Source: a virus. Taken from it: a stretch of 41,750 nucleotides of DNA. The position numbers and the translations under genes were made by a program. Positions 9,905 to 34,683 of this stretch are shown here, piece by piece. Position 1 is the stretch's first letter; every line of letters starts with the position of its first letter. The DNA lies in the IMG/VR virus record IMGVR_UViG_3300031787_000277, positions 1 through 41,750 of that record; one strand, written 5' to 3'. The notes beneath the pieces were generated by a model, which had not been told where the DNA came from, did not search any database, and saw nothing but the letters and a program-made list of their open reading frames with translations.

Positions 9905-11440
9905 ATGAGCGGAATTAGAACTAAACCGTTTCCATCCAAATATATCGTTGAAGAGCAGTATGCTAATGACGATAAATTGTTTAGCGGTCACTTTAGGTAT
10001 GAAAACTTGCTACAATCAAAAGGTGGAACAGTACACGATTACACAGACTTAACAGAATTAGCTAGAGGTTTCTACGCTAGAACTTCTGAAACTCTTTCTG
10101 AGAATACAGCTCCTTGGTTACAATGGATCAAAGGAACTGGCGGAATGAAAGACGTTACTACTCAGAAAGTTCGTTGGAGACACTACGGTAAGCCAAAGAG
10201 AAAATTCATTTCTCAGGGTAACCCAAACACATGTGAATATATTGGAGCAGCTGGCTCTACTTTTAAAGTAATTTTTGATGTAGACCATTTCCAGCCTTCT
10301 GATGAATTAGCACCAGTTGAAAACGGACGTGCTAAAATTATTATTGAATCTTACGCTAGAAAAGTAGCCGGTGGTTATCAGTATGATGCTGTTTTAGCAA
10401 ACCCTGAAACACACTTGCCTAAAGTTTATTTACAAGGAAAATTCTGGACAAGAGCAGGTCAATCTTCTGCATATTTATCTCCTATTACAGGACGTGCAGG
10501 TAGCTTCTCTTTCAGCTCAGGTTTTGCTTATATCGAATTTGAAGTTCCTTTACACACTATGACTAAGGAGTTCTCTGTAGACATGGAGACACACCTTAAA
10601 GAAGGTTCTTTGAAAGTTGGTTGTAAGTATGACGATAATGTAATCGAAGAGAAAATTACAAATAGACTTGAGATCGAGTTTGATGCGGCTTTTGAAAAAG
10701 AAATGGAGCACATCCTCGTTCACGGAGAAATGACAAACAACAGGGTTGATCCTGTTAATAGAAAGCCTATTACAACTTCTCCTGGTCTTTACGCATATTT
10801 GGAAGAATCCAATATTATTAAGTATAATCCATTTGTCAACAGCGTTGACATGATCATGGACCTTATCCAAGTTTACTGGTACGACCGTGTACCTACAAGC
10901 AAGAGAAATCTTGTATTGATGACTGGAGAAGCTGGTCTTAAATTGTTCCACAACTGGTTGGTTGAGAAGTTCGGATCTATGCCTGTAGAAATTGAGCACA
11001 ACTTCGTACTCGATTCTTCTAAGTCACATGACATGGCTAAGAGAGGATTTGCTCTTGGTGGATTCCAATTTACAAAGTACCACGTACAGCCATTTGGTAG
11101 CGTTACAGTAGGTCACTGGCCAATGCTTGATGACACATTGTTTGATGCTAAGACAATGCCTGGAAGTATCTATACAGTTCGTTCTCACGAGTTCATCGCT
11201 ATGGACTGGGGAATGGGCGAGCCAAACGTAACTCTATTAAAGAATACTCAGAGAGATAGAGATTTGATCGTACCTGGTTACTGGTCTCCTTGGGGTGCAG
11301 TTGGTTTAAAGAACCCTTACTTCAAGACTGTTGGTCAACCTGAATTAGAAGATACTTATTTAGTTCGTAAGAGTAGAACTTTCGGTCTTGCGGTTATGGA
11401 TGTATCTAGAATCTTATTGTTCAGACCTTCTGTAGGATAA
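9905..11440 (+). CDS. Major capsid protein
   Basis: A 511-residue protein directly after the probable scaffold. It has mixed alpha/beta composition with no low-complexity parts. A long N-terminal arm (residues 1-60) precedes a middle section rich in beta strands, and the C-terminus is hydrophobic (LAVMDVSRILLFRP). These traits suit an HK97-fold capsid subunit with an unusually long chain. Codon choice differs from most neighbours, with many C-ending codons (AAC, TTC, TAC, CAC) and CGT/CGC arginine codons beside AGA, a sign of very high expression. A strong terminator follows immediately. The call rests on position, size and codon use. No single diagnostic motif was used. Confidence 0.85.
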   Translation: MSGIRTKPFPSKYIVEEQYANDDKLFSGHFRYENLLQSKGGTVHDYTDLTELARGFYARTSETLSENTAPWLQWIKGTGGMKDVTTQKVRWRHYGKPKRKFISQGNPNTCEYIGAAGSTFKVIFDVDHFQPSDELAPVENGRAKIIIESYARKVAGGYQYDAVLANPETHLPKVYLQGKFWTRAGQSSAYLSPITGRAGSFSFSSGFAYIEFEVPLHTMTKEFSVDMETHLKEGSLKVGCKYDDNVIEEKITNRLEIEFDAAFEKEMEHILVHGEMTNNRVDPVNRKPITTSPGLYAYLEESNIIKYNPFVNSVDMIMDLIQVYWYDRVPTSKRNLVLMTGEAGLKLFHNWLVEKFGSMPVEIEHNFVLDSSKSHDMAKRGFALGGFQFTKYHVQPFGSVTVGHWPMLDDTLFDAKTMPGSIYTVRSHEFIAMDWGMGEPNVTLLKNTQRDRDLIVPGYWSPWGAVGLKNPYFKTVGQPELEDTYLVRKSRTFGLAVMDVSRILLFRPSVG

Positions 11441-11503: not shown

Positions 11504-11737
11504 ATGAAAACAATGAAGAAAATTACATCTGCTACCACTAAGATGAAATCTGGCGGTAAAGTTAAAAAAATGCAATCTGGCGGTGAGGCTGTTTTGGTAA
11601 AATCTGCACCAAAAGATATGTCTTTGAAGAATTATGTAAATTCTCAAAAGAATAAGACTGCAAAAGATAAACTTAAAGATGCACAATCATCTAAAAAGAT
11701 GATGAACGGTGGTTACGGAAAAAAGAAAATGAAATAG
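11504..11737 (+). CDS. Small very basic protein with KKMQSGG motif
   Basis: A 77-residue protein dominated by Lys with Gly, Ser and Met. It contains a KVKKMQSGG motif near residues 19-27 and ends in MMNGGYGKKKMK. Another tiny protein in this window (23080-23235) shares both the KVKKMQSGG motif and an MKNGG...KKK ending, so the two look like paralogues. It sits immediately behind the capsid terminator. The charge suggests DNA binding or a role inside the head, for example as a DNA-condensing or internal protein. No homologue is recognised. Confidence 0.6.
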   Translation: MKTMKKITSATTKMKSGGKVKKMQSGGEAVLVKSAPKDMSLKNYVNSQKNKTAKDKLKDAQSSKKMMNGGYGKKKMK

Positions 11738-12788: not shown

Positions 12789-13511
12789 ATGCCTATTAGC
12801 GCCAGAAAGCTTGTTTACGATACAGTTAGAAAACTAAATGGTTTAAATACTGGAATGGGGCAGTCTTTCAGCGTGTTAGACTTGGTCAGCGCTATTAATG
12901 ATGCTTATGAAATTATTGTAGAAAATAATGTAAAGTTTACTGACACCAACTCTTTAATTAGGGACAATCTCAGAAAGCTTGAAATAAAAAATTACGAATT
13001 AGATTTATCTAACAAAGGTAATTACTATTTCGCAAAGTACCCGGACAATCTGTATAAAAGATTAAACCACGTAGCAGAAGTAACTTGTAAAGATTGTGAT
13101 GGAACAAAAATTATAGTTCCAAGATTAGTACAGTCTGATGATTTACATGAAGCTAGAAAAAACCCATATAGAAAAGCTAATTATTATTGGGAACAATTAA
13201 TAATGGATGAAGGTGGTGAGGGGTTATTTATTTATACTGACGGGGAAATGGAAGTAACTAAATTAACTATAGACTATTATAGACGTATAAACTACATAGA
13301 AGCACCTAGCTTGGTAGAATGCAATGACTATGTTTATTTGAATTATGATGACAACCTCATTTCCAATGATGTTAATTTTGATTTAGATAATACATATATA
13401 GCAAGGAAGGTAACTGATGTCGCTGTATTATTATTAAGAACTGATATTAAAGATACAGAAGCCTTCAGACTAAAGTTAGAAAGCATAATGCAAACAGACA
13501 AAATAACTTAA
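12789..13511 (+). CDS. Probable head-tail connector (adaptor) protein
   Basis: A 240-residue protein starting 2 bases after its neighbour. The N-terminal helical part has the pattern typical of phage adaptor proteins (VLDLVSAINDAYEIIVENN around residues 28-46). A beta-rich middle with a CKDCDG turn follows, and then a C-terminal helical part (ARKVTDVAVLLLR). Adaptors of this size bind under the portal to form the neck. The assignment is from size, fold impression and position three genes after the capsid, not from a named family. Confidence 0.5.
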   Translation: MPISARKLVYDTVRKLNGLNTGMGQSFSVLDLVSAINDAYEIIVENNVKFTDTNSLIRDNLRKLEIKNYELDLSNKGNYYFAKYPDNLYKRLNHVAEVTCKDCDGTKIIVPRLVQSDDLHEARKNPYRKANYYWEQLIMDEGGEGLFIYTDGEMEVTKLTIDYYRRINYIEAPSLVECNDYVYLNYDDNLISNDVNFDLDNTYIARKVTDVAVLLLRTDIKDTEAFRLKLESIMQTDKIT

Positions 13512-13529: not shown

Positions 13530-15158
13530 ATGAGTTCAGAAAAAAGCGAAATCAAAAGACACCTAGTTACTTCCGGTAACTTTGCGTTCGTTGCAACAGG
13601 TACTCCATTATATAAACTTGTTAAGACTGGAGAGAAGTTCAAGAAGTACTATAATGTAGCCCCAGGTCAACCAGTTATGTGGGTTGAGGATACAGATTGC
13701 GGGGATATTCCTGATACAATTGCACCAGCAAACTTAACACTTGCTGACTTAGCTAATATCAAAATTGGTGTTGGTTACTCTTCACAAGGTAATGGCATGA
13801 CTGATGCTATTAGACTTTTGTCACCTGTGAATATCCAAGGTTGTACAATCGACAAATTGGATGCTACTGATGCACAATGTGCAGTTCCTTGGATTAAGGC
13901 AGTTTATCCTGATTGCGTTAGCTGCGATACAGTTAGTGCCCGTGTTAGGGTTTACGACAACCAAAGTATTTCTTTCTCAGACCATCCGTTGAAAGCATAC
14001 CAAGAATTTGTTGGATCTTACACTCCTGATTGCTCTTCTTGCAACGACTGTGAGCAGACAGCTACTTGCGATGAAATCGTTTGCGGTTTGGTTGATGCAT
14101 TGAATAATGACACAGACCTTCGTATTGAAGGGGATCCATATCCACACTATTACAACACAGGTTTGGTTCGTCCTTACACTGCGTTTAAAATTCACAACAC
14201 TTGGAAATCTTACTGTATTTCCCCATCTATTGGTGCTGATTGTACTGAGTGTAATTCAATTTCTGCATTGACTACATTTACAATTGATGGTGACAATTAT
14301 AACTTCGATTTAACAGACCCATCAACATCTGGCGAAACACTCCAAACTTTGGTTGGTCAGTTAGAAGTTGCTGTTGACTTAATTAACGAGAAATTTACAG
14401 AAGTTTTAGGTCGTCATGCTGGTAAGGCATTCCTCTCTAAAGGAGAAGGTAAGTGCTGCCCATTGCAGTTGTTTGTTACTACTTGTGACAGCACATTTGC
14501 TATTGCAGGTTTAACTCAGTGCCAAGATGCAGTTGACCAATGGCCTGATTTCGTAACTAGCGGTTACTGCAAGCAGTGTGGTTCTACTGAAGATACTACT
14601 ACTCCTAACTGCGGTATTGGTGTTTTCGTTAAGCCTGATGTTGAGCCTTGCAATTGCTGGGAATTAAACCAGCCTAAGCAGTTCAACAGCCGTTGGATTG
14701 AAATCGACATCTTGTCCGGAACTGGTAACGATAATACACCTAAGTACACTAAAAAGGCTACACTTCTTGAAGGTCAAGTTGCGAGCAACTACGGATCACA
14801 GATTCAGTACCTTGAGTACGCACACAACATCGATGCTATCGGATTTGAAGGTTTCGATTATGAAATCGGAAATGAAGTAGCCGGATGGTTGGGAGTTCCT
14901 AATAAGAGGTCCAGAATTAGAAAAGCAATTACAGCAGACTGCGAAAAGTCATACTGTACTTATTATATGAGACATAAAGGCCAGACTGAAAAAGGTCCAT
15001 TGAAGACATTCATCAATCTTTATATTGACGGATTCATTCACGTACCTGAGAATGACTTTACTACGAAGACAAGCATTAATGCCTTGTTCGACAAATTCGT
15101 TGACTTGGTTCCTCAAGAATGTAAAGTTCTTACAAGCGCTAGCTGCTACGTAGACTAA
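13530..15158 (+). CDS. Abundant virion protein, Cys-rich, unknown type
   Basis: A 542-residue beta-rich protein with many Cys in pairs and clusters (for example CSSCNDCEQ near 170-178, and CKQCG and CNCW further on). There are no membrane segments and no signal peptide. Codon use is strongly biased in the same way as in the major capsid gene (CGT arginine, C-ending codons), the leader is almost the same, and a strong terminator follows. These signs indicate very high late expression, so it should be a multi-copy virion component such as a major tail or tube protein, a capsid-lattice partner or a head fibre. Which of these cannot be decided from the sequence. Clustered Cys in an intracellularly assembled protein may bind metal. 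Confidence 0.7.
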   Translation: MSSEKSEIKRHLVTSGNFAFVATGTPLYKLVKTGEKFKKYYNVAPGQPVMWVEDTDCGDIPDTIAPANLTLADLANIKIGVGYSSQGNGMTDAIRLLSPVNIQGCTIDKLDATDAQCAVPWIKAVYPDCVSCDTVSARVRVYDNQSISFSDHPLKAYQEFVGSYTPDCSSCNDCEQTATCDEIVCGLVDALNNDTDLRIEGDPYPHYYNTGLVRPYTAFKIHNTWKSYCISPSIGADCTECNSISALTTFTIDGDNYNFDLTDPSTSGETLQTLVGQLEVAVDLINEKFTEVLGRHAGKAFLSKGEGKCCPLQLFVTTCDSTFAIAGLTQCQDAVDQWPDFVTSGYCKQCGSTEDTTTPNCGIGVFVKPDVEPCNCWELNQPKQFNSRWIEIDILSGTGNDNTPKYTKKATLLEGQVASNYGSQIQYLEYAHNIDAIGFEGFDYEIGNEVAGWLGVPNKRSRIRKAITADCEKSYCTYYMRHKGQTEKGPLKTFINLYIDGFIHVPENDFTTKTSINALFDKFVDLVPQECKVLTSASCYVD

Positions 15159-15261: not shown

Positions 15262-15798
15262 ATGAACAATATAAAATTAACAGGAAATTCAAAACTCCTA
15301 AAAAAGACAAAATCTAAGATCAATCCTAGAGAATTATCTCTTGCGCTGGCCGAAGCCACTGAATGTGGTAACGGCCTTAATCCGTTGAAGGGATATATTG
15401 TTCTTCCTAATTTTAATTCATCTTCAGGAGATGTTGACAATAGAGTAGCATTATATATTGTAGATGGAGAATTAGTAATTGAGCCAATCGAAGATGCAAA
15501 AGCAGCTATTTCTGCTTTCTGCTCAAACTCTTTAGTTAGCGCTACTGGAGCGTCTATATCAGGATGCTTAACTGGACAAAATTTAACAGTAGGCGGGACT
15601 AGACAATTAACAGCTTCAGTAACTCCTTCCACTGCGTTACAAACTGGTACTTGGACAACATCTAACGCGGGTAGAGCGACAGTTAACTCATCTGGATTAG
15701 TAACAGCTGTTGCAGCCGGTTCCGTGACAATTACGTTTACTTCTACTGATGGAGGATTTACGGCTACTTGCGCTATTACTGTGGTTGCTCCATTATAA
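15262..15798 (+). CDS. Virion decoration protein with Ig-like (Big_2) domain and shared N-terminal tag
   Basis: A 178-residue protein with two parts. Residues 1-30 carry the tag KLTGxSxxLKKTxSxINPxExSLA, also found at the start of the protein at 23232. A middle beta segment follows. Residues about 100-178 form a bacterial Ig-like group 2 (Big_2) domain, shown by LTVGGTRQLTASVTP, then W.TSN.GRATVNSSGLVTAVAAG, then VTITFTS. Big_2 domains on phage heads or tails commonly bind carbohydrate weakly and help the phage stay near host surfaces. The N-terminal tag probably attaches it to the virion. It follows directly after a terminator. Confidence 0.78.
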   Translation: MNNIKLTGNSKLLKKTKSKINPRELSLALAEATECGNGLNPLKGYIVLPNFNSSSGDVDNRVALYIVDGELVIEPIEDAKAAISAFCSNSLVSATGASISGCLTGQNLTVGGTRQLTASVTPSTALQTGTWTTSNAGRATVNSSGLVTAVAAGSVTITFTSTDGGFTATCAITVVAPL

Positions 15799-15821
15799 TT
15801 TTATAATAAAAATATAATAAC

Positions 15822-16340
15822 ATGACTAATGCTAATTGCTCCTGTATAAAAAGGGAGGATCAATCATTTGATTTCATAATCAATACTTATGATTGCAGAA
15901 GCTTAGTTATTACTGATTTAACAAATTGGATGATAGGTGATGGTTACGTTTTGCCAACAACGCACAACGTAACCGTTACCTTACCAACTCAATCAAAAGT
16001 AGATATAAAAATTATACCTAACTCAGTAACAAGTGTTAGCGCAAATACATTAGGTTTTGGCGAATGTCTAAAAGACGGTATATACGGCTTTTATACAGAG
16101 AGTTGCGGGTATAATTATAGTAAAGTAAAAGCTGTTGTCTGTACACTTAGGTGTAAATTAGATAATTATATATCTAAGGCAATGGATAAAGAAGATTGGG
16201 ATAACATAACAAGAATCTCTAACCTTATCGATTTAATAGAAATCGATGCAGAAATGGGCAATGAAATAAATGCTAAAGAAATGTTTAAGATTGTGGATAA
16301 GGAACTTGATAAACATTCTTGCACTTGCTATTGCAGGTAA
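15822..16340 (+). CDS. Cys-rich virion-type protein with helical tail, unknown
   Basis: A 172-residue protein. Residues 1-90 are beta-rich (HNVTVTLPTQS, VDIKIIPNS). The C-terminal 75 residues are helical and acidic and end in the Cys cluster CTCYCR. Cys also occur at the start (CSC). The composition matches the following Cys-rich proteins, so it is likely to be part of the same surface or tail assembly. It is not recognised by family. Confidence 0.6.
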   Translation: MTNANCSCIKREDQSFDFIINTYDCRSLVITDLTNWMIGDGYVLPTTHNVTVTLPTQSKVDIKIIPNSVTSVSANTLGFGECLKDGIYGFYTESCGYNYSKVKAVVCTLRCKLDNYISKAMDKEDWDNITRISNLIDLIEIDAEMGNEINAKEMFKIVDKELDKHSCTCYCR

Positions 16341-16365
16341 TTTTAAATTTAAAGTAAAAAATAGA

Positions 16366-16902
16366 ATGGCAAATATATATTCATGTTGCAATTGTTTTGG
16401 CAACTCTTTGACATTGAACAACAACTGTAATCCAACCTCAACTAGTGAATGTGGGGGTTGTTTGACTTTAGGTCATATTATGGTTGGGTGTGAAAATAGC
16501 ATCGCTCCATGCGATACCGAAAGCACATTAAAAGTGCCATTCGATTGTTTTTGTTTTCCTTGCGACAACCCACAATTTAAGATAACTAACCTAAGCAAAA
16601 TAAAGTACGCAACTGTAGTGTCAATTGATAAAACAGGTGTGACTATTCAACCTGATGGAACCGGAAAAGCCAACTCTAAAGTAGAGATTGAATTTTTTGC
16701 TATGTGTTCTGACGGGTGTGATGTAAAATCTGATTACGGTAGTGTTAGTATTTATCTTAGAGATATTTGCAAAGGTGTTATTTGTGAGGATGGATATAAG
16801 TGCAATGATTGCACTGGAGACTGCGACCAAGTAACTATAGATTTATCAGGACAAAGGCCGGTCGAAGAAACTGAAGAAAATACTAGCGGTTTTATACTAT
16901 AA
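16366..16902 (+). CDS. Cys-rich virion-type protein, unknown
   Basis: The ATG at 16366 is preferred. The frame is open further upstream to an ATG at 16270, but that region overlaps the previous gene and encodes an unrelated basic stretch. The 178-residue product starts MANIYSCCNCFGN and contains many Cys pairs throughout (CGGC, CFCFPC, CNDCTGDC). The body is beta-type (TVVSIDKTGVTIQPDG, KVEIEFFAMC). It ends TSGFIL, and the next protein also ends with a hydrophobic -VIL. A metal- or disulfide-stabilised virion domain is likely. The role is unknown. Confidence 0.6.
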   Translation: MANIYSCCNCFGNSLTLNNNCNPTSTSECGGCLTLGHIMVGCENSIAPCDTESTLKVPFDCFCFPCDNPQFKITNLSKIKYATVVSIDKTGVTIQPDGTGKANSKVEIEFFAMCSDGCDVKSDYGSVSIYLRDICKGVICEDGYKCNDCTGDCDQVTIDLSGQRPVEETEENTSGFIL

Positions 16903-16917
16903 AAAATAAAAGACAAA

Positions 16918-18540
16918 ATGCCAAATTATACATCCCCATCACCAGCAAATGTAGCCCTTAACGGAAACCAAACTACTTGGTGGATTCCGGCTAAAAATAA
17001 CAGCACAATTACTGTTACTAACGTAATTGTTACTATTACAGTTGCGCCTACTAGTGGGTTACAACTTTTAACTTTCCAACCAGAAGTCGGCACATTTAAT
17101 CCAACTACAGGTATTTGGAATATAGGAACTCTTTTACCAGGGTCTACAAAATGGCTTAAACTTGTTACTTCTGTAGCAGATATTGGATTAGCTCCTTTCA
17201 CAGTTACATCTGTAATTAGCGGAAATGGGGTTGATTCAAATGCATTAAACAATACATTAGTTCAGACTGTAACATCTGTTGTTACTTCTGCTACAGCAGG
17301 AGCTATAGATGATCCGCATTCTTGCTCTTGTGTTAATGTGGCGGAGAACGACACTCCGTGTAACTTAGGAACAACTACTTATGTTCTCAATGAGCCTAGC
17401 ATTACTAACTCTACAGAATACTGGTGGGATGATGCTACAGGGCAGGGTAAATTTATCCCTGTAGACCCAAAAGTAGATATTACTTTTGAATACAGTATTT
17501 GGTGTAATGATGGATCCGGAGCTGTAGAAATAAGCGGACCTGCATTAGTTACAATAGATAAATTATTTTCTGATGTATCCTCTTTTGATCATACAATCTC
17601 AACTGTACCATATTCGGCATTATGCCCGCAAGAAATTTCTGTTTTATCTGCACAATACCCAACATTAGATTTAAGTAAATATTGTTGGAGAATTCTTAAA
17701 AATGTATTAGGAGACGCAACTTCAGGTGAACCTGTAGATTGTGATGAAGCTATTGATACTAGGACATTTTTTATTTGTTCAGAAATAGATTGCAATACAC
17801 CAGAACAACCTTGTCCGTGTCCTACAGATGAATTACCAGCAGACATACCATCTCAATTACCTGTCGGTTACGAAGCAGAAAAAGGAGACACAGTAGTTAT
17901 ATACCATCCAAATGCAATGTCTGTTTGGACTTATGATGGAACATTGTGGAATAAGTGGTCTTGTGGATGTATTTATAAAATATCTCAAGACGAAGATAAT
18001 GATTTAACTTTAGGCTCAGATGGAGCTCCTTATTTTGATTTATCTTCAATGACAGAAATTATTGAATTGCAAGATAAGGTAGTTACAAGTATAGCCTTTA
18101 CAGGTACAAGCACAAAAACACTTACTCTTACATTCGATGATGGTTCTACATTAACAGCAAATTTTGCGGATTTATCAGCAGCATCTAGCACTTATGTAGA
18201 GGTATCTGATACTTGTTCTATAAACATGTCTATTTCTGGAACAGGTTCTTCAGTTAATCCATTTGTAATTAGTGCAGAATATAATGAAGGAAGTCCACTA
18301 TATGCTTATGACTCTGGAGTTGTAGGTTCTACAGCAAATACACTAAATGTGACTACTTTATTTGATGTGTCTTGTCCAGAAGACTGTGCAGTTATTTATA
18401 CATTAAACGGATATTCTACTGATGTCTTTCAGAATGTAACTTTAGTAGGAACTACCCTAACTTATGATATAAAATCAACAGCTCCATCTGGGACACATTA
18501 TATTAATGTAGACAGGGAGTGCGGAGGCGTAATACTCTAA
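16918..18540 (+). CDS. Multi-domain beta-sandwich virion protein with DUF11-like domain
   Basis: A 540-residue protein. Residues about 1-125 resemble the DUF11/CARDB type of Ig-like repeat: TVTNVIVTITV, then GTFNPTTGIWNIGTLLPG, then a VTSVIS strand. The middle (about 130-320) is Cys-rich, with an acidic/proline linker DELPADIPSQLP. A segment GYEAEKGDTVVIYHPNAMSVW with VWTYDGTLWNKW follows, similar to the short WNGT..Y modules that precede phage fibre domains. The C-terminus holds at least one more beta domain. No catalytic site is seen. It is a likely surface adhesin or fibre-linked protein. Confidence 0.62.
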   Translation: MPNYTSPSPANVALNGNQTTWWIPAKNNSTITVTNVIVTITVAPTSGLQLLTFQPEVGTFNPTTGIWNIGTLLPGSTKWLKLVTSVADIGLAPFTVTSVISGNGVDSNALNNTLVQTVTSVVTSATAGAIDDPHSCSCVNVAENDTPCNLGTTTYVLNEPSITNSTEYWWDDATGQGKFIPVDPKVDITFEYSIWCNDGSGAVEISGPALVTIDKLFSDVSSFDHTISTVPYSALCPQEISVLSAQYPTLDLSKYCWRILKNVLGDATSGEPVDCDEAIDTRTFFICSEIDCNTPEQPCPCPTDELPADIPSQLPVGYEAEKGDTVVIYHPNAMSVWTYDGTLWNKWSCGCIYKISQDEDNDLTLGSDGAPYFDLSSMTEIIELQDKVVTSIAFTGTSTKTLTLTFDDGSTLTANFADLSAASSTYVEVSDTCSINMSISGTGSSVNPFVISAEYNEGSPLYAYDSGVVGSTANTLNVTTLFDVSCPEDCAVIYTLNGYSTDVFQNVTLVGTTLTYDIKSTAPSGTHYINVDRECGGVIL

Positions 18541-18549
18541 TAAAGAATT

Positions 18550-18951
18550 ATGAACAAGACTCAGTCTAAAATAGGAATAACAATACCAGAAACTCCTCCG
18601 CAGGAAAACTATATATATTCAGCTTATTTCCAGTATGACGCTATAGGAGGATTTGCTGAAGGGGAGGTTTACAACAATTTTCCTTCTACTCCTACTTGGA
18701 GTATGACAGGTACAGGTATTATAGAAACGACAAGCGGTTTAGGTTATAATTTCGCAAACAAAAACTCAGTAGAAATTCTTGTGTCAAAAGTTATAACGAC
18801 GGGGATAGCAGGAGCATCTAGCGATTATCACGTATCCGCTAGCATATCTAGTGGCGGAGCTGATGATATAAGGATTGAATTATTAGATTCTACATTCGCC
18901 GCCACAAATGATTTTGGTGCATTTTATTTACGTGTTACAGTATACCAATAA
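18550..18951 (+). CDS. Small beta-rich virion protein with MNKTQSKIGITI tag
   Basis: A 133-residue protein. Its first 12 residues, MNKTQSKIGITI, are identical to those of the next gene, and the remaining 121 residues are unrelated. The body is a beta-sandwich-like domain with many Thr, Ser and Gly (SASISSGGADDIRIELLDS, FYLRVTVY). The shared tag suggests that both are displayed at the same attachment point. The function of the body is unknown. Confidence 0.62.
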   Translation: MNKTQSKIGITIPETPPQENYIYSAYFQYDAIGGFAEGEVYNNFPSTPTWSMTGTGIIETTSGLGYNFANKNSVEILVSKVITTGIAGASSDYHVSASISSGGADDIRIELLDSTFAATNDFGAFYLRVTVYQ

Positions 18952-18954
18952 AAA

Positions 18955-19293
18955 ATGAATAAGACACAATCTAAAATAGGAATTACTATAACTGCAAGTC
19001 CGACTTGTTGTTGCTGGACAAATATATATTATTATTCTTCAGAAGAATATTCAGTTGGGGCTATGAAAGCCTATGTAACTGGTTGTGATGATGCCGATTT
19101 AACTTGGGAAATATTAGTAGGCTCGACTTGGACTGAAATACTTTTATCAGATCCTGGCTTCGGTTTGGACCCTACTATATATGATCCAAATGCATTAGGA
19201 GCACAAGGCCCTGGATTGTATAGAACAAAAATGTCATCGGTTGGATGCTGTGATACATACTCTAATATATTAGAATCTTTCGGACCAGTTTAA
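18955..19293 (+). CDS. Second MNKTQSKIGITI-tagged small virion protein
   Basis: A 112-residue protein starting 3 bases after its neighbour with the identical 12-residue tag. After the tag comes a CCCW segment and an Ig-like body. The pattern (YSVGAMKAYVTG, then LTWEILVGSTWTE, then GPGLYRTKMSSVGC) resembles Ig-like surface domains in Bacteroidota adhesins. The tag was probably duplicated together with, or recombined onto, a new body. Confidence 0.62.
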   Translation: MNKTQSKIGITITASPTCCCWTNIYYYSSEEYSVGAMKAYVTGCDDADLTWEILVGSTWTEILLSDPGFGLDPTIYDPNALGAQGPGLYRTKMSSVGCCDTYSNILESFGPV

Positions 19294-19302
19294 TATAAAT
19301 AA

Positions 19303-20055
19303 ATGTATCCATCAAATTCACAAAGAATAGAACAGCAGTTAAAAAACTTAAAGCACAAGGTAACTTGTGGAGTGCAGTTTTTTGACACATTTGAAGACTT
19401 TCCTGCAACAGGTAAAGAATGCGCAGTATATGTAGATAAAAGCACTGGCGCGTTTTTTATTTGGAATGGTACGGCTTATGTAACTTGTTGTGGGGAAGGA
19501 AGTACTATAGTAGCTCAGGGAATACAAGGTATACAAGGTTTAAGAGGACTCCAAGGTTTACAAGGTTTATCTGGTTCTTACGGGTTAGCTAACGGAGCTT
19601 TTTTTAGTACTCTATCACAATCTATTTCAACATTGGGCTCTGTAGTTCCTATGACTTTTAATAGCGAAATAGAGTCTAATGGTGTTTATTTAGATAATGT
19701 AGCATCTCCTAACTTAAATTCATTTTATCTTACAAATCCGGGTATATATAATATACAATTTTCAGCACAATTACTTAGAGAATTTGGAGGATCTGATGCT
19801 CATATTGGTATTTTTTTAAAACGAAATGGAGTTACTGAACCTTATACGGGCACATATTTACATTTTAATAGTAATAATACTTATTTAGTTGCGGCTTGGA
19901 ACTTTTTTGTTACAGCACAAGCGGGTGACTATTTTCAGTTAATGTGGACAGTAGATGATTTAGATATACAATTAGTGTATTTGGGAGAAGATAGTATTTT
20001 AGCAGGAGTTCCTGAAACACCTTCGGTTATTTTAACAGTAAATCAAATAATGTAA
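19303..20055 (+). CDS. Short collagen-like protein with C1q/TNF-like head
   Basis: A 250-residue protein. Residues 1-66 are an N-terminal domain with a coiled-coil start and a YVDKSTGAFFIWNGTAY motif, also seen at the start of the long collagen-like fibre at 24440. Residues about 72-95 are eight or so Gly-X-Y triplets, mostly GIQ and GLQ. Residues about 100-250 resemble a C1q/TNF-type trimeric jelly-roll (YLTNPGIYNIQFSAQL, then IGIFLKRNG, then GDYFQLMW). Such proteins form trimeric fibres with a binding head. This is probably a short head or tail fibre. Confidence 0.75.
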   Translation: MYPSNSQRIEQQLKNLKHKVTCGVQFFDTFEDFPATGKECAVYVDKSTGAFFIWNGTAYVTCCGEGSTIVAQGIQGIQGLRGLQGLQGLSGSYGLANGAFFSTLSQSISTLGSVVPMTFNSEIESNGVYLDNVASPNLNSFYLTNPGIYNIQFSAQLLREFGGSDAHIGIFLKRNGVTEPYTGTYLHFNSNNTYLVAAWNFFVTAQAGDYFQLMWTVDDLDIQLVYLGEDSILAGVPETPSVILTVNQIM

Positions 20056-20059
20056 AAAT

Positions 20060-20713
20060 ATGTATTCAAATAAGTTTTCTTTAACATTTCTTTCTTTATT
20101 TTTTATTATTTTTATAATTATAGGTTGTTTGAAGGATGAGGAGATTACTTCATCTTCGGTGCCACAAACAGAAGAAAAGGTAGAGACTATCAAAGATACA
20201 ACATCACAAGTTCTACCAAGAAACGGACAAGGAGACTTAGTATTATACAGAGGTACATTATCTATAGACAACTACTTGTTAGTATCTACAACAAACAGAG
20301 TATTCAGAACACACACAGTGTACAATAAAGATAAAGTAGCTTATTTATCTTTTCGCCCAGGCACACTAGGAAAAGCAAATATCGGCGGTGTGGTTACAAA
20401 GCATTATAATATAGAGGTAAAGTACAAAGATAGTACAGTATCTACAATCAATGCATTCTCAAAAGACACGTTAGATAGATTCAGATTTTATCCAAAAGGT
20501 GTAAATCTACTTAACAGCTTACATCCTTCTAAAAAGTTAGAATGGGTGTATGCTAATAAAACAACTGCAAGCATAAACGAGTGGAGAGGGACTACGTACA
20601 CAAACTTGCAAAATTGGAACATTTATGCAGACGGAATGTTTGTGGCGCAAAAAGTAAAAGACCCGGTTGATAAAAACTCAACACAATTTATCATACCGCA
20701 TTCACATAAATAA
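20060..20713 (+). CDS. Predicted lipoprotein, unknown
   Basis: A 217-residue protein with a lipoprotein signal: a short positive start, a hydrophobic segment at residues 7-21 and the lipobox IIGC with the lipidated Cys at 23. Mature N-terminal residues 24-60 are acidic and flexible. The rest (60-217) is a compact-looking beta/alpha domain with many Lys, Asn and Thr. It precedes the endolysin genes, so a role in lysis (outer-membrane spanin partner) is possible, although it is longer than most o-spanins. A surface-exclusion lipoprotein that blocks superinfection is an equally reasonable alternative. Confidence 0.62.
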   Translation: MYSNKFSLTFLSLFFIIFIIIGCLKDEEITSSSVPQTEEKVETIKDTTSQVLPRNGQGDLVLYRGTLSIDNYLLVSTTNRVFRTHTVYNKDKVAYLSFRPGTLGKANIGGVVTKHYNIEVKYKDSTVSTINAFSKDTLDRFRFYPKGVNLLNSLHPSKKLEWVYANKTTASINEWRGTTYTNLQNWNIYADGMFVAQKVKDPVDKNSTQFIIPHSHK

Positions 20714-20745
20714 AGACATTAATAAACCAGAGGAAAAACTAAAAA

Positions 20746-21033
20746 ATGGAATCACTTTTAGAAATTATTAAAGAATATTTAGGAGAAGCGGTTGTCGCAA
20801 TAGTTACAGGTCTTGTAGCTTATTTATCAGGAAAGAAAAAAGCCGAAGTAGAATTAAGAAGCTCAGAAGGAGAAGCACTCAAAACAATGCAAGAGGCTTA
20901 TGATAAATTTACAACAGATAGCCTAAAAAAATACCAAGAACTTTACGAAGAACTGCATGAAGTAAAAGAAATGTTAAAAATAGTAAAGAAAGAATTAGAA
21001 GACTGTAGAAACGGAGTATTAGCACCAAGATGA
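20746..21033 (+). CDS. Membrane-anchored coiled-coil protein of the lysis cassette
   Basis: A 95-residue protein. A single membrane segment at about residues 13-29 (AVVAIVTGLVAYLSG) is followed by KKK and a long coiled coil (about 35-85) rich in Glu, Lys and Leu. The layout resembles an inner-membrane spanin (Rz-like). However, the positive charges lie after the membrane segment and the N-terminus is acidic, so the positive-inside rule would place the coiled coil in the cytoplasm. A holin or holin-regulator role is therefore also possible. It overlaps the endolysin start by 4 nt. Confidence 0.6.
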   Translation: MESLLEIIKEYLGEAVVAIVTGLVAYLSGKKKAEVELRSSEGEALKTMQEAYDKFTTDSLKKYQELYEELHEVKEMLKIVKKELEDCRNGVLAPR

Positions 21034-21527
21034 CAGACAATATAACAAAACAAAGAATAAAACTAGCCCACCCTAAATTACGAAATGAGTTAGAGGATTT
21101 AATTGAAAATATTAACACAAATATACTTACAGGCCAGTCAAAAGTAAGATTAGCTTATACCCTTAGAACTTGGGACGAACAAGACGAACTTTACGCACAA
21201 GGCAGAACAAAACCAGGTAAAAAAGTAACAAATGCGAAAGGAGGAGACTCTATGCATAACTACGCTTTAGCTGTTGATATTGTTCTTATCATAGATGGAA
21301 AAGATGCGTCATGGGATACCAAGAAAGACTGGGACAAAGATAAACAATCCGATTGGATGGAAGTTGTTTCAGAGTTTAAAAAGAAAGGTTGGGAATGGGG
21401 CGGAGACTGGGTTAAGTTTAAAGATATGCCACACTTTGAAAAATCATTTGGCTTATCTGTAAAGAAACTTAAAGAAAAGTATTTAAAGAAGGATTTTATT
21501 CCGGGAACAGAATACGTAAATATATAA
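21030..21527 (+). CDS. Endolysin, M15 family L-Ala-D-Glu-type peptidase
   Basis: A 165-residue protein with the VanY/M15C peptidase core. R46 lies in LRTWDEQ, followed by YAQGRTKPG. The zinc motif SMHNYALAVD provides ligands H76 and D83, and MPHFE provides the third ligand, H135. This family, which includes Listeria phage Ply500 and the T5 endolysin, cuts the peptide stem of peptidoglycan. A short C-terminal tail (about 145-165) is basic. No signal peptide is present, so release needs a holin (candidate at 23934). Ala79 replaces the commonly seen Gly in the SxHxxG part of the motif. Confidence 0.88.
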   Translation: MTDNITKQRIKLAHPKLRNELEDLIENINTNILTGQSKVRLAYTLRTWDEQDELYAQGRTKPGKKVTNAKGGDSMHNYALAVDIVLIIDGKDASWDTKKDWDKDKQSDWMEVVSEFKKKGWEWGGDWVKFKDMPHFEKSFGLSVKKLKEKYLKKDFIPGTEYVNI

Positions 21528-21528
21528 T

Positions 21529-22308
21529 ATGGAAGGTTTTAAATGCTCACACGCAGAGAAAAGTAATTATTCAGTTATTACACCAAATCAACATTTAAAG
21601 CCTATCAACGGCAAGATAACGTGGCATATCGACGAGCAGAGTTTAACTACCGATATGGAAAAATACAAAGTGTTATTTGCTTTTGAGCAAGCGTTTAACA
21701 AGTGGGGTGAAATAATTAACCCTATATCTTTTCAGCCAGTTGCTGCGATTAATGATGCACAAATTGTTATCAAGTTTAAGAGTAATGGTGACGAAGGTCT
21801 GCCTTATGAATTTGATGAAACAACATTAGCTTATGCTTTTGCTCCGCAAGATACAAGTTTAGGTATCTATGCGGACATGTATTTTAATGATGCTTACAAG
21901 TGGGATGAAATACATAAAGCTGGTAGCATTTATCTTTTTAAAGTTGTTGTTCATGAATTAGGCCATTGCTTGAATATTGGGCACCAAACAAAAGATATAA
22001 ATGATATTATGTATCCTATTTACCAACCTTTTGGTGAAGTAGTTGTAAATAAAGACACAAAGCAAGGGATATATGATTTGTATAAACAATATGGCGTTAA
22101 AAGCCCAACTCCAATCCCATCTGAAGGAATTGATAAAGAAGTTGGCCAATTTATAAAAGCCATGTATAAATCAAAAAATGATTTATTAAAATTAAACTCA
22201 TCCCAATTGCAGAATTTATCTTCTACTTTAGGAGTTACCTTTGGAATCAAAGACAATATACAAAAGAGAGTTAATACTCTTTGGTCTGTAATATTAGGCA
22301 TAAAATAA
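21529..22308 (+). CDS. Matrixin-like zinc metallopeptidase (M10 type)
   Basis: A 259-residue protein. The zinc site HELGHCLNIGH covers residues 142-152 (H142, E143, H146, H152), and the Met-turn IMYP with M161 follows at the usual distance. Upstream, TTLAYAFAPQ...IYADMYFND...W (about 98-125) matches the calcium/structural-zinc region of matrixins (LAHAFxPG...GDxHFDxxExW). Asn149 replaces the conserved Gly of HExxHxxGxxH. No signal peptide and no cysteine-switch propeptide are present. A helical C-terminal part (about 205-259) may be a targeting domain. It sits one base after the endolysin stop. Possible roles are lysis, degradation of host surface proteins, or maturation of virion proteins. 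Confidence 0.82.
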   Translation: MEGFKCSHAEKSNYSVITPNQHLKPINGKITWHIDEQSLTTDMEKYKVLFAFEQAFNKWGEIINPISFQPVAAINDAQIVIKFKSNGDEGLPYEFDETTLAYAFAPQDTSLGIYADMYFNDAYKWDEIHKAGSIYLFKVVVHELGHCLNIGHQTKDINDIMYPIYQPFGEVVVNKDTKQGIYDLYKQYGVKSPTPIPSEGIDKEVGQFIKAMYKSKNDLLKLNSSQLQNLSSTLGVTFGIKDNIQKRVNTLWSVILGIK

Positions 22309-22311
22309 TTT

Positions 22312-22494
22312 ATGAAAAAAGTTACTAAAAGTAAAGTAAATGAAGCTGGTAATTACACTAAACCAGGAATGAGAAAAACCTTATTTAATAAAATAAAATC
22401 AGGATCAAAAGGTGGAGACCCAGGGGAATGGAGTGCTAGAAAGGCGCAGTTGCTCGCTAAAGAGTACAAGAAAAAAGGAGGTGGATATAAATAG
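22312..22494 (+). CDS. Small basic protein of the WSARKAQ/GGGY family
   Basis: A 60-residue highly basic protein. It has the signature GNYTKPGMRK...LFNKIK, then PGEWSARKAQLLAKEYKKKGGGYK. I recognise this pattern from small proteins widespread in environmental phages and large DNA viruses. It may correspond to DUF5872, but that accession is from memory. Its function is not established. It belongs to a run of tiny basic proteins behind the lysis genes. Confidence 0.75.
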   Translation: MKKVTKSKVNEAGNYTKPGMRKTLFNKIKSGSKGGDPGEWSARKAQLLAKEYKKKGGGYK

Positions 22495-22621
22495 CATTCT
22501 ACTTTCTATATTAATATTAATTACTATAGTCTCGCCATTTAGTTTATTACACACTATATTAAAACTTACAATAAGTGACCCAATTAAAAAAATCGCAGCA
22601 AAGTTTAAAAAAGTGGACTAA
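22481..22621 (+). CDS. Possible small single-span membrane protein (GTG start)
   Basis: A 46-residue frame opens at GTG 22481, overlapping the end of the previous gene and the start of the next in other frames. It encodes a hydrophobic segment (INSILLSILILITIVSPFSLL) of about 20 residues and then a basic amphipathic tail ending AAKFKKVD. It fills an 80-base gap that would otherwise be empty. The overlap of 47 bases with the next gene and the non-ATG start make it uncertain. It could be an antiholin-like peptide or a chance frame. Confidence 0.35.
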   Translation: MDINSILLSILILITIVSPFSLLHTILKLTISDPIKKIAAKFKKVD

Positions 22622-22853
22622 AGAAGAGTGGATGACTTCTGGGACATACGCTAATAAAAATAAAGGATCAGGCAAAGAAGTAAAATCAAGCGGTAATAAA
22701 AGGTACTTACCTAAAGAAGCTTGGTCAAAATTATCCGCATCCGAAAAGAAAGCAACAAATGCAGCCAAATCAAAGGGCAATAAAGCAGGAAAACAATTTG
22801 TAAAACAGCCACAGAAGATAGCAAAAAAGGCGGCACAAGTTAGAAACAAATGA
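22575..22853 (+). CDS. Small basic protein with SLKKWTKEEW motif (GTG start)
   Basis: A 92-residue Lys-rich protein. The GTG start is chosen because the N-terminal block KSQQSLKKWTKEEW is part of a pattern I recognise from small phage and viral proteins, and no ATG precedes it. The middle reads RYLPKEAWSKLSASEKKATNAAKSKG, and the end reads KQFVKQPQKIAKKAAQVR, again conserved-looking. It is probably nucleic-acid-binding or packaged with the genome. The biochemical role is unknown. Confidence 0.7.
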   Translation: MTQLKKSQQSLKKWTKEEWMTSGTYANKNKGSGKEVKSSGNKRYLPKEAWSKLSASEKKATNAAKSKGNKAGKQFVKQPQKIAKKAAQVRNK

Positions 22854-23077
22854 AAAAAGTAAAAGTAGGCGGTGTGCCTCATGTCGTAAAGAAAAAAGGA
22901 AAAGACATTGTTGTAGAGCATCCAACCATTAATAACGGTAAATACGATAAACTTAATCTAAGTAAACAGACAAAAGGTAAAGTCAAAACCGTAAAGCAGG
23001 GAATAAAATCTACAAAAGAATGGCACAAAGAAAACCCGCATTCTTATAAAGATAAAAGCAAGTCAAAAAAGAAGTAA
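22850..23077 (+). CDS. Small basic protein, unknown
   Basis: A 75-residue Lys-rich protein overlapping the previous stop by 4 nt. It begins with MKKVKVGGVPHVVKKKGKDIVVEHP, a short beta-hairpin-like segment, and continues as a basic tail ending in KSKKK. It belongs to the same cluster of tiny basic genes. A DNA-associated role is inferred from charge only. Confidence 0.58.
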   Translation: MKKVKVGGVPHVVKKKGKDIVVEHPTINNGKYDKLNLSKQTKGKVKTVKQGIKSTKEWHKENPHSYKDKSKSKKK

Positions 23078-23079
23078 CA

Positions 23080-23235
23080 ATGAAAGTTAAAAATACTAAA
23101 GTAAAGAAGATGCAATCAGGCGGCTCTTTAAAAGCAGTTGATTCTTATAAAAACCCAGGTTTATCAAAACTACCAACTGAAGTAAGAAATAAAATGGGCT
23201 ATATGAAAAACGGGGGTAAAGCTAAAAAGAAATGA
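23080..23235 (+). CDS. Tiny basic protein, paralogue of the 11504 product
   Basis: A 51-residue protein with KVKKMQSGG at residues 8-16 and the ending MKNGGKAKKK. The protein at 11504-11737 has the same KVKKMQSGG motif and a similar MMNGG...KKK ending, although the sequences between differ. The stop overlaps the next ATG by 4 nt (ATGA), which supports real translation. Confidence 0.6.
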   Translation: MKVKNTKVKKMQSGGSLKAVDSYKNPGLSKLPTEVRNKMGYMKNGGKAKKK

Positions 23236-23735
23236 CAAAGTTAAAATTAACAGGCAAGTCCAATATATTAAAGAAAACAACTAGCGGTATTAATCCTAAA
23301 GAATTTTCTTTGGCTACTAAAGAAGCCGAGCAATGCCCAGATGATTCATGCGGTGGCGGAGGTGGATCTAGCGTTGGCTATAAAAAATATGTAGCTTTAT
23401 TAAACCCTGGAGAAAATCCACTTACTGACGCACCTGTCGCCACTGTATTAGAAAATACTCTTGGTAGCAATATTATATGGTTTCCACAAGCACCATCAGG
23501 TGCTTATAGTGGGGGGAATATAAACTTCGCAGACCCGTCTAAAGTTTTCATACTTATGACAGGAAATTATTCAGGAGAAGGTGCTGGGAATGTTCCATAT
23601 GTAGGTGCTGAAATTTATGATGACGGAAGTGGTTTTAAACTTTGGTTTTTTCCTGTTAATTATGTAGGTGATCCTATTGCATATTGGGGTACCCCTAACG
23701 CACCTCTATTTATAGAAGTAAGAGTATATCCATAA
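23232..23735 (+). CDS. Virion protein with KLTG/INP N-terminal tag
   Basis: A 167-residue protein. Residues 1-34 (KLTGKSNILKKTTSGINPKEFSLA then EAEQC) match the N-terminus of the Big_2 protein at 15262. A Gly-rich linker follows (GGGGGSS, about 41-47). The C-terminal 115 residues are a different beta-rich domain ending FIEVRVYP. The tag is therefore joined by a flexible linker to a different cargo domain. It is translationally coupled to the tiny basic gene upstream. Confidence 0.68.
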   Translation: MTKLKLTGKSNILKKTTSGINPKEFSLATKEAEQCPDDSCGGGGGSSVGYKKYVALLNPGENPLTDAPVATVLENTLGSNIIWFPQAPSGAYSGGNINFADPSKVFILMTGNYSGEGAGNVPYVGAEIYDDGSGFKLWFFPVNYVGDPIAYWGTPNAPLFIEVRVYP

Positions 23736-23753: not shown

Positions 23754-23912
23754 ATGGCTTTAGGAGTTAAACATTACACAAAGGACGGAAAGGAATATAA
23801 GGGCCCAATGCACAAAGATGCTAGCGGCAAACTTATGACTGGCAAAACGCATACAAGTAAGAGTGAGTATCTTACCCATTCAAAGCCTAAGCCAAAAACT
23901 AAGAAGAAGTAA
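23754..23912 (+). CDS. Tiny protein of the KHYTKDG/TGKTHT family
   Basis: A 52-residue protein reading VKHYTKDGKEYKGPMHKDASGKL, then MTGKTHTSKSEYLTH, with a basic tail ending KTKKK. The repeated pattern of DGxxxxGxxHKxxxGxxxTGxTHT is one I associate with tiny proteins common in environmental phages. Function unknown. It lies 18 bases after one gene and 21 bases before the holin-like gene. Confidence 0.62.
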   Translation: MALGVKHYTKDGKEYKGPMHKDASGKLMTGKTHTSKSEYLTHSKPKPKTKKK

Positions 23913-24439: not shown

Positions 24440-27400
24440 GTGGCGGAAATTCCATCTAATTGCAAAACAATTTTAGTTGACCAAGAGTGCTGCGATAGAA
24501 TCCAATACTATCCAAGCACTGAGTCTATTCCTTTAGAAGGAGAGTTAAATGTTTTGTATGTAGACCAAAGCACAGGTAATGTTTATGTTTGGAATGGTAC
24601 ACAATATTTAGGCGGGTATACTGGAACTGGGGCGCAAGGAATACAAGGAATACAAGGATTAACAGGATTACAAGGCTCAAATGGTATTCAGGGTATTACA
24701 GGAATACAAGGAGCTCAAGGATTAAAGGGGTCTCAAGGTGCCATAGGTATACAAGGTAAAAATGGAATTCAAGGTACACAAGGCTTATTAGGGTATCAAG
24801 GTATTATTGGTTCTAAAGGGCTACAAGGAATACAAGGTACTTCTGGGCAGCAAGGTTTAACTGGATATGGAGTACAAGGTACTCAAGGATCAAAAGGTTC
24901 GCAAGGGACTATAGGAGTCCAAGGTAAAGACGGTATCCAGGGATTTTATGGATTACAGGGGACACAAGGTATATCCGGATCTAAAGGATTGCAAGGAGTC
25001 CAAGGCATAACTGGTACACAAGGTGCCACAGGATATGGCATACAAGGGGCAAAAGGAGCCCAAGGTATACAAGGTACTACAGGTATTCAAGGAGAAGATG
25101 GAGTACAAGGATTTCACGGCTTTCAAGGAACTCAAGGTATTTCAGGATCTAAAGGAAGCCAAGGAGTACAAGGCATATCTGGACACCAAGGACTAATTGG
25201 AATTGGCGTACAAGGTATACAAGGTTACGATGGAGCCCAAGGTCAATCTGGAATACAAGGTAAGAATGGTGTACAAGGTTTTTATGGCTTACAAGGCATA
25301 CAAGGTACAAGTGGGTGCGAAGGGGCACAAGGAACGCAGGGAATACAAGGGGCCCAAGGTATTATAGGTTCTTCTGGCTCTCAGGGTATCCAAGGTGCAA
25401 AAGGGTCACAAGGAACAGTTGGCATTCAAGGAAGACAAGGTACGCAAGGAATTCAAGGATTAAAAGGAAACAACGGACTCCAAGGAATACAAGGCGCTAA
25501 TGGTGCTCAGGGTATATTATACCAACAACTTTATACACTATCACAAAGTAATTGGAATTTAGTAGCTGGTTTATATCAATACGATTTATTTGATTCGTAT
25601 ATAAACCAAGGAAGATATATAACAGTAACTCCAGTAAGACAGGATGATCCTATTGTAGATGCTGCACAAATAATGCCGGAAATAACAGTATTTCCTACAT
25701 CTATAAGGATGTATTCTGTTAATTTACCTACTGCTGATTTTGATGTTTATTTATCAATAGTAGAAGTGGGTATAGCTGGAGCGCAAGGCACACAAGGTAT
25801 ACAAGGTACCCAAGGACTTCAAGGATTGCAAGGTTTACAAGGTTTACAAGGAGTACAAGGAATCCAAGGTATTCAGGGCTTGCAGGGACTTCAAGGATTA
25901 CAAGGGGTTCAAGGAGAACAAGGAATACAAGGTTTTTTTGGTATTCAAGGGGCCCAAGGTATTCAAGGCTTACAAGGAGCACAAGGATTACAAGGAGCAC
26001 AAGGAGTGCAGGGTTTCGTTGGGTTACAAGGACTCCAGGGAACAAGTGGGATTCAAGGGATTCAAGGCTTGCAGGGGCTTCAAGGAAGCAGGGGTGCTCA
26101 AGGTATACAAGGGACTATAGGATTGCAAGGGGTACAAGGCTTACAAGGGCTTCAAGGGATTCAGGGAATTCAAGGTCTACAAGGCTTACAAGGTTTGATA
26201 GGTGTCCAAGGAATACAAGGGCTTCAAGGGCTTCAGGGAATTCAAGGGGTACAAGGAGTTCAGGGAAATTTTGGAATACAGGGTTTTGACGGAGCACAGG
26301 GTGTACAAGGCATCCAGGGAGGCCAAGGTACCCAAGGTCTTTTAGGAGTACAGGGTAACGATGGTTTAATAGGCCCCCAAGGAATACAGGGTGTACAAGG
26401 CATCCAGGGCACACAAGGAATCCAGGGGGTAACCGGAGAAAAAGGTATAAGTTCTGGATTAGTATTATATTTAGATGGAGTTGGAGGATCAGCACCTGTC
26501 AGCCATAACTTATTAACAAATCCAAATACAGGTACACAAACCTCTATAACTACTTCGGTTAATAACTCAACACCCACATTAGTTGGAACTTTTGTTACAG
26601 ATACAGGTGTTCCAAATTCTACAACAGTAGCTGGGGGGTTTTGGAATTTATTTCTTTATGCTAGCCGCACTACTCAGAATGTAAGATTTTGGATTGATGT
26701 TAAAGAAGTAGCATCAGATGGCGTTACGGTTTTACAAACTTTAGCTTCTGGAGCATACGCACAAGGTACTGTAGTTACTGCGACAATTGCTACTGTGTAT
26801 GATTTTTCAGTGTACGTCCCATTAACTTCATTAGCTAATTCTAGTAGCCGAATATTGATTGATATTTATGCTCAATCTGAATCAGGAGGTCCAACCTTTA
26901 CTTCGTATTTAAGAGATGGTACTATATCATACTTAGTTAGTACAATTTCTAGTAATATACAGGGTGTACAAGGGATGCAAGGAATTATTGGTACACAAGG
27001 GGGGTCAGGAATACAAGGTCTACAAGGGTTACAAGGTATAACTGGTGCCCAAGGAATACAAGGGCTTCAAGGATTGCAAGGGGCCGATAATAATATTTGG
27101 GTAATGAAAGATTTTATAACTCCATTATATACTTTTTCGCCAGGTCTTTCTGGAGTTGGTTATGTTGATTTAAACGGCATAGCGGATTTTGATATAAAAA
27201 GATTAGTAGCTATTATAAACCAAACAAATGGTTCTATTATTTACGCTACTGCAACCCCGTCCGCAAAATATACAAATGTAACTGGAACACAAGTAACTTT
27301 ATTTGCGGATACGTCTGGGCAAAATTCAGCAGACAATTTACAAATTGTATATAATTCAAAAGAGGATTTACCTGTTACTGATTCTAATTTAGCTGATTTA

Positions 27401-34500: not shown

Positions 34501-34683
34501 TATATTTTTATATTTAAGACAGGTGCAAGTGTTCCCACATTAACCCAACCAGGAGGAATTGTTTGGAGGGGGCAAACTCCTTCAATAAGTACAAATGAGA
34601 CTTGGACTATAGTTTATGAATATGTCCAAGTAAGCGGAACTCCTACTTGGGAAATATATGGCACTGCGGTTAAAAATGTATAA
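31525..34683 (+). CDS. Long collagen-like fibre protein 2 with C1q-like domain
   Basis: A 1052-residue fibre protein. A Gly/Ser-rich start ([10 protein letters not shown], about 10-21) leads into a nearly uninterrupted collagen block at about 22-762 with Gln in most Y positions. A break around CCQG is followed by a C1q/TNF-like beta domain (about 770-905: [28 protein letters not shown]). A second short collagen block lies at about 910-937, then GGGG and a C-terminal beta domain (about 943-1052). Only a few triplets lack Gly (for example SSQ in GSASSQG). The DNA contains an exact 86-base duplication. It probably forms a long, thin trimeric fibre ending in a binding head. Confidence 0.84.
32095..32180 (+). 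repeat. Exact 86-bp direct repeat, copy 1
   Basis: This stretch is identical to 33001-33086, 906 bases (302 codons) downstream in the same collagen-like gene. It encodes the register break [10 protein letters not shown] and its flanks. Identity ends abruptly at both borders. Perfect identity at synonymous sites indicates a recent duplication or ongoing gene conversion. Confidence 0.9.
33001..33086 (+). repeat. Exact 86-bp direct repeat, copy 2
   Basis: Second copy of the 86-base repeat at 32095-32180. Recombination between the copies would remove or add 906 bases in frame (302 codons), changing fibre length without breaking the reading frame or the Gly-X-Y register. Confidence 0.9.

Follow-up and report, generated by a model that had tools for sequence, protein, structure and literature searches.

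The locus described here raises the question of why two pairs of phage proteins that begin alike should continue into quite different domains. It lies in IMG/VR virus record IMGVR_UViG_3300031787_000277, whose 41,750 bases (positions 1–41,750; this whole stretch is "the window" below) correspond to the final third of a 121-kb IMG/VR contig that is near-identical to it; open reading frames (ORFs) are named here by the position of their first base. An earlier note on this DNA had pointed out that ORFs 15262 and 23232 begin with one N-terminal sequence (tag A) and the adjacent ORFs 18550 and 18955 with another (tag B, MNKTQSKIGITI), and had proposed that these are docking peptides through which display domains are exchanged on a single fixed virion site. 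The four ORFs and both tags exist as described, with 21 of 36 residues identical between the tag A proteins (178 and 167 residues long) and 12 of 12 between the tag B proteins. It seems reasonably probable that all four are modular virion display proteins, tag A being a capsid anchor and tag B a means of reattaching a detached fiber domain; the virion location, the docking, the site of each tag and the place of ORF 16918 in a fiber are what we infer from the comparisons that follow.

Two shared N-termini and their carriers

When 154 ORFs (those of the window and of the rest of the 121-kb contig) are compared all against all over their first 40 residues, the tag A pair ranks first with a score of 101 and the tag B pair third with 59; the best score in five shuffled sets is 47. 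Alike starts on unlike bodies occur only in the window among nine stretches (the window and eight others of 14 to 36 kb), and the other pairs that score at least 48 in them are gp25/gp26 of phage phicrAss001, the ring paralogs of the same phage, and one Lys-rich pair of the window. The bodies of tag-mates are not detectably related in sequence: 15262 ends in a Big_2 immunoglobulin (Ig)-like domain, 23232 has a GGGGGSS linker before its presumed display domain (Table 1), and phmmer searches with the 23232 and 18550 bodies gave no hit at E 0.1 to any further ORF of the window. The observation that one tag precedes different cargo is thus borne out.

The two tags had also been tied to each other by the motif K-T-x-S-x-I, which is indeed present in all four tag ORFs and in no other of the 154. 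Only 0.01 occurrences of KTxS[KG]I would be expected in the first 25 residues of that many ORFs, a figure for a motif chosen after it had been seen; because it was picked post hoc and the members of each pair are not independent, it counts for little as evidence that A and B are linked. Beyond this weak resemblance a single fixed site for all four proteins is not supported, and tag B is more likely to address a fiber than the capsid.

Tag A is mostly the ordinary N-terminus of a 15262 family, with 23232 as the only other carrier found. The first 38 residues of 15262, used as a query, match only 15262 and 23232 in the window record, and the ten core positions of the tag are invariant across six aligned sequences, 23232 among them. 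In the AlphaFold model of 15262, residues 1–16 have a predicted local distance difference test (pLDDT) score below 50, residues 22–34 form a helix, and strands and a further helix lead to the Ig domain. These strands and helix belong to a middle domain, some 50 residues long, that is present in 15262 orthologs and absent from 23232. What is conserved in the orthologs is thus longer than the tag and takes in the middle domain.

A tblastn search of 50,697 phage records with tag A, run to an E of 10, gave no match. Its pattern occurs in 10 IMG/VR stretches, eight of them on six contigs already collected and two (L047 and L050) with no in-frame ORF of at least 30 residues at the match. The tag B pattern occurs in 40 stretches, three of them of the window lineage; 11 of the other 37 lie within an in-frame ORF of at least 30 residues, and no convincing tag B is among those 11 (six are 40 residues or fewer from the start, and the nearest is a 43-residue ORF of L089). 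Searched against the same phage records, 23232 matched two at E 0.9, and 18550 and 18955 matched none at E up to 1.

A plainer explanation is that tag A is the structural N-terminus of an ordinary family, 23232 a chance fusion and tag B the leftover of a partial duplication, with no docking involved. The carriers of tag A belong mainly to a single family (seven of eight compared records have it, and only three window-lineage records have it twice), and the adjacent positions of 18550 and 18955 fit a tandem duplication. The tag B codons argue otherwise. Five of the 12 codons differ between the two genes, every difference being synonymous, and in the next 12 codons the amino acid differs in 11; the probability that five random substitutions would leave the peptide intact is 0.0002–0.0003. 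Since the differences are synonymous only, while the bodies are not detectably related, the tag B peptide is selected for itself. Both tags are moreover fitted in frame, from residue 1, to differing bodies, and the invariance of the ten tag A core positions points in the same direction. We regard an explanation without docking as unlikely.

The body of 18955 matches approximately the last 100 residues of 16918 orthologs (E = 2e-12 in L005, 2e-10 in L019 and 2e-6 in L018), and in L005 and L019 this domain comes after a collagen-like stretch. The window 16918 protein resembles its orthologs over the first part and then has a different end that lacks an 18955-type domain, and no tag B genes are present before the next large ORF in L005, L019, L018 or L092 (the last with a shorter DUF11-like gene). 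Because the 18955 body forms the C-terminal domain of 16918 in the sister phages but is absent from the window 16918, tag B most likely would reattach detached display domains to the 16918 fiber assembly; the tag B genes lie between 16918 and 19303. No relative of the 18550 body was found in the searches made, among them those against the window ORFs and the 50,697 phage records.

Table 1. Tag-bearing proteins of the window and the virion genes discussed with them
Feature	Coordinates	Strand	Remarks
Major capsid protein (MCP)	9905..11440	+	PHROG 11589, E 4e-29
Ring protein, phicrAss001 gp34/gp35 family	12789..13511	+	hhalign 98.4%, E 9e-15
Probable auxiliary capsid protein (AUX, phicrAss001 gp36-like)	13530..15158	+	542 residues; directly upstream of 15262; fold match
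Tag A of 15262, residues 1–36	15262..15369	+	core K14 K15 T16 S18 I20 E24 L27 A28 E31 C35
15262 middle domain, about residues 37–94, strands and helix	15370..15543	+	kept in orthologs; AlphaFold model
Big_2 Ig-like display domain of 15262	15544..15798	+	PF02368, E 1.7e-14
DUF11 protein, probably fiber-associated	16918..18540	+	PF01345, E 7e-12
Tag B protein 1: MNKTQSKIGITI and 121-residue body	18550..18951	+	133 residues
Tag B protein 2: MNKTQSKIGITI and Cys-rich body	18955..19293	+	112 residues
Tag A of 23232, residues 1–36	23232..23339	+	58% identity to 15262 tag over 36 residues, E 5e-10
Gly-rich linker of 23232 and its presumed beta display domain (YKKYVALL...EVRVYP)	23340..23735	+	

Relatives of 15262 and the exchange of display domains

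Besides near-identical contigs, 15262 orthologs are present in six lineages. Those of L005/L016, L004/L020 and L135 consist of tag A, the middle domain and Big_2, and that of L092/L093 of the tag core and middle domain (82 residues) without Big_2. The L019 protein has another start, in which the Cys and a portion of the helix are retained, and the L018 protein a different start; in both, the middle domain and Big_2 are present. Proteins of 83 and 79 residues at the same place in L096 and L136 have diverged too far for a decision (the one in L136 is truncated at the contig end). For ten lineages the sequence covers AUX and what lies downstream of it; the gene stands directly after AUX in eight of these, including the window, L096 and L136, and in L018 the 15262-type gene is one gene further on, after the 15822 ortholog. 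A profile of the tag and middle domain, run at E 0.01 against 395 genomes of the class to which the L135 genome belongs, matched two, the L135 genome itself and L138; the L138 match (E 0.002, a 59-residue frame) was taken as chance, its neighbor genes looking cellular. In the L136 genome the same profile gave no match at E 1.

Within these proteins the degree of identity shifts near residue 90, at the border between the middle domain and Big_2. The window and L004 are 99% identical in MCP, 92% in AUX and 85% in tag plus middle domain, but 57% in Big_2, whereas L004 and L019 are 49, 43 and 47% identical in the first three and 85% in Big_2; for the window and the remote L018 the corresponding values are 27, 24, 38 and 75%. 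Tree tests, run after these identities had been seen, reject the clades {window, L004} (p = 2.4e-7) and {window, L004, L005} (p = 3e-5) for Big_2 and the clade {L004, L019} (p = 7.8e-6) for AUX. In Mantel tests over seven phages, tag plus middle domain correlates with MCP (r = 0.93, p = 0.0008) and AUX (r = 0.92, p = 0.0006), with the ring protein at r = 0.86 and with the 15822 family at r = 0.87; Big_2, in six phages, gives r = −0.15 with MCP and −0.17 with AUX and is not positively correlated with any of the four genes. Since tag plus middle domain tracks the capsid proteins and Big_2 does not, the anchor and the capsid descend together and the Ig domain is exchanged.

The 23232-type body likewise has a different start elsewhere. 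It was found in one of the 395 genomes (G169), where an ORF of 148 residues and another of 152 (L139:1381–1827 and L140:1366–1824) carry it behind a common N-terminus of another kind, ∼43 residues long (MAKKWSEKTEK...). With Big_2 uncoupled from both the rest of its protein and the capsid, and with the 23232 and 18955 bodies occurring elsewhere in other contexts, these comparisons support the swapping of display domains behind conserved N-termini that the earlier note had suggested.

The Ig-like domain of 15262 is supported by both Pfam and fold, and it takes up all of the protein's fold-search matches; among those in a viral-structure library are two that are named as capsid decorating or decoration proteins. 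It is a common domain and not diagnostic. Big_2-type matches are widespread, 15262 being matched by 733 of the 50,697 phage records, in 726 cases across under 80% of its length, and the annotated ones among the matches listed are Ig-domain or structural proteins.

The capsid neighborhood and the proposed sites

Sequence comparison shows the window to be a structural module from a crassvirus-like phage, kin to the gut crAss phages. Its TerL, portal and MCP match phage protein families. The best TerL relative in the 50,697 phage records is that of the crassvirus Cellulophaga phage phi14:2 (26% identity over 92%, E = 9e-50); by first word, 43 of the 92 records matched by TerL are "uncultured" and 29 Flavobacterium, and the "uncultured" ones are crAss-named among the matches listed (best 60 of 92). 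MCP matches 47 records, including 14 uncultured cr-named phages, and has crAss-like and Fpv1-type Flavobacterium phages among its hits. The ring protein has 240 residues.

The 542-residue product of 13530, which had been taken for a virion protein, fits that role through its fold, and we take it to be the auxiliary capsid protein, an assignment that is good though short of certain. Its AlphaFold model, compared with VIA, gave phicrAss001 chains as the top three rows (Z 9.3, 7.8 and 7.2, the third tied with 8es4_E); the best of them, 7qof_a, has 333 residues, the same length as gp36, and aligned over 277 residues. The model also matched the flagellar cap protein FliD 6iwy (Z 5.9), the same structure that is named as gp36-like in the phicrAss001 paper (PMC10172136). 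The gene order around 13530 is that expected for AUX.

In phicrAss001, the head fibers gp21 and gp29 are seated by their N-termini (residues 1–38 and 1–58, respectively) in hexon pockets formed from MCP and AUX, and each exposes its C-terminal domain, which in gp29 is Ig-like, on the capsid exterior (PMC10172136). Since 15262 shares this plan, has a similar neighbor and shows the descent expected of such fibers, we infer that tag A, with the middle domain, occupies a capsid site, be it the hexon or another. The 15262 protein would thus be a capsid-anchored decoration of the head-fiber type, its anchor (tag A and middle domain) most likely in a pocket of MCP and AUX and its Big_2 domain facing outward, the latter being swapped by recombination near the junction of the two. 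In 23232, tag A would be joined to another display domain through the flexible Gly linker and fill the same kind of site; since this protein has the tag without the middle domain, tag A alone may suffice, and one virion could thereby show two kinds of head display. A stronger version, with tag A as address for the capsid hexon (MCP/AUX), tag B as address for the fiber assembly, and several interchangeable proteins taken up by each per virion, is rather doubtful; if true, each particle would carry a mixed plug-in set of binding domains, changeable without altering capsid or fiber shaft.

Several points weigh against these assignments. A gap-free resemblance by eye of tag A to the gp29 anchor was dropped when profile comparison did not bear it out: by hhalign the tag A family has no homology to gp21 (probability 0.1%) or to gp29 (below 1%; in one gp29 comparison two of the six gp29 rows were 8-residue fragments), so that membership in either family is not supported by sequence. 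For 13530, Foldseek found nothing significant (best E 0.17), no match to phicrAss001 gp36 was found by sequence, and the model behind the AUX assignment has a mean pLDDT of 62 and its match a root-mean-square deviation of 10.6. L097/L099 have no tag gene after AUX, and the different N-terminus of the L018 protein occurs once in its 73-kb record. Since tag plus middle domain correlates with the ring protein and the neighboring 15822 family as well, its correlation with the capsid proteins could be explained by linkage or plain vertical descent. Finally, two different carriers per tag were found in near-identical contigs of the window lineage and nowhere else, although most relatives are fragments, so second carriers elsewhere may have escaped.

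Position would also allow all four tags to bind the tail, at hub or fiber, and not the head, with their proteins as tail-fiber accessories. ORF 15262 lies between AUX and 15822, a gene at the tail-hub position, and its L018 counterpart lies behind the 15822 ortholog; the tag B genes are flanked by 16918 and 19303; and the phicrAss001 fiber gp22 docks to the hub through residues 1–26 (PMC10172136). On the other hand, homology of 15822 to the tail hub protein gp38 was not detected, and tag plus middle domain tracks MCP and AUX slightly above the 15822 family (r = 0.93 and 0.92 vs 0.87, a small gap over seven phages). Tail binding by all four seems quite unlikely.

The internal proteins of phage T4, which are targeted by N-terminal peptides, follow the same plan of short tags on unrelated bodies, and the tags could by analogy be capsid-targeting sequences of proteins that are held inside the head for injection. 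Internal cargo is present in crassviruses (PMC10172136). Big_2 is, however, typical of surface and decoration proteins, and in two of the sister phages the 18955-type body is preceded by a collagen-like stretch; internal targeting is very improbable.

Other genes of the window may be mentioned briefly. Collagen-like GIQGTQG proteins are encoded at 19303–20055, 24440–27631 and 31525–34683, and by eye the starts of 19303 and 24440 resemble each other. ORF 23232 sits among very small Lys-rich ORFs (22312–23235 and 23754–23912, with another at 11504–11737), and the Lys-rich ORFs 23080 and 11504 have a KKMQSGG motif in common. An M15/VanY-type peptidase (21030–21527, E = 3e-16) is a likely endolysin, and the next gene, amid structural genes, encodes a Matrixin-type metalloprotease (21529–22308; Peptidase_M10, E = 2e-25). 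After the fiber genes come two glycosyltransferase-like proteins (37285–39566; GT17, E = 2e-6, and GT2, below the cut-off). An ORF of 4,934 residues in the same contig lineage (L123:4536–19340) is, from its size alone, perhaps a virion RNA polymerase or a crassvirus cargo protein.

Comparison with known display systems

Anchored, exchangeable Ig decoration is already known (PMC10172136, PMC13370021, PMC11821841). The tag A proteins are like phicrAss001 gp21 (HFT) and gp29 (HFD) in having a short N-terminal anchor and a small C-terminal display domain. They are unlike them in gene position, gp21 being encoded after the portal gene and gp29 upstream of MCP whereas 15262 follows AUX, and in number, since phicrAss001 has one protein per anchor and the window two per tag. 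Hoc, T5 pb10 and Sf14 gp20 also combine a capsid-binding part, N-terminal in Sf14 gp20, with Ig-like arms (PMC11821841). In Ig decoration proteins the number of arms varies and horizontal exchange has been proposed, but Sf14 gp20 binds through a 118-residue helical domain (PMC11821841), whereas the tags of the window are far shorter and are reused on different bodies. The Ig-like domains of crAss-like phages are treated as modular display units, and about 64% of those in gut crAss-like Ig-like adhesins are BACON domains; the available part of that account describes no shared N-terminal docking tag (PMC13370021). Nor are such shared tags described in the literature among the matches listed (titles and abstract openings), which does not prove their absence.

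The junction of anchor and display domain is a recombination point of these phages. Should tag A suffice by itself as a capsid address, this would explain quick change of surface adhesion and would offer a ready-made short tag for the display of proteins on such capsids; the tag B case would show a fiber domain turned into a separate plug-in protein.

An N-terminal segment common to two proteins of one phage is also found in the tail fibers gp25 and gp26 of phicrAss001, the only other such pair in the eight comparison stretches besides the full-length ring paralogs; unlike the pairs of the window, these are large fibers with some similarity between their bodies (score 55). Set beside all of these systems, what is new here is that one short anchor is reused on different bodies within a genome, and that a detached fiber domain is carried on a second tag.

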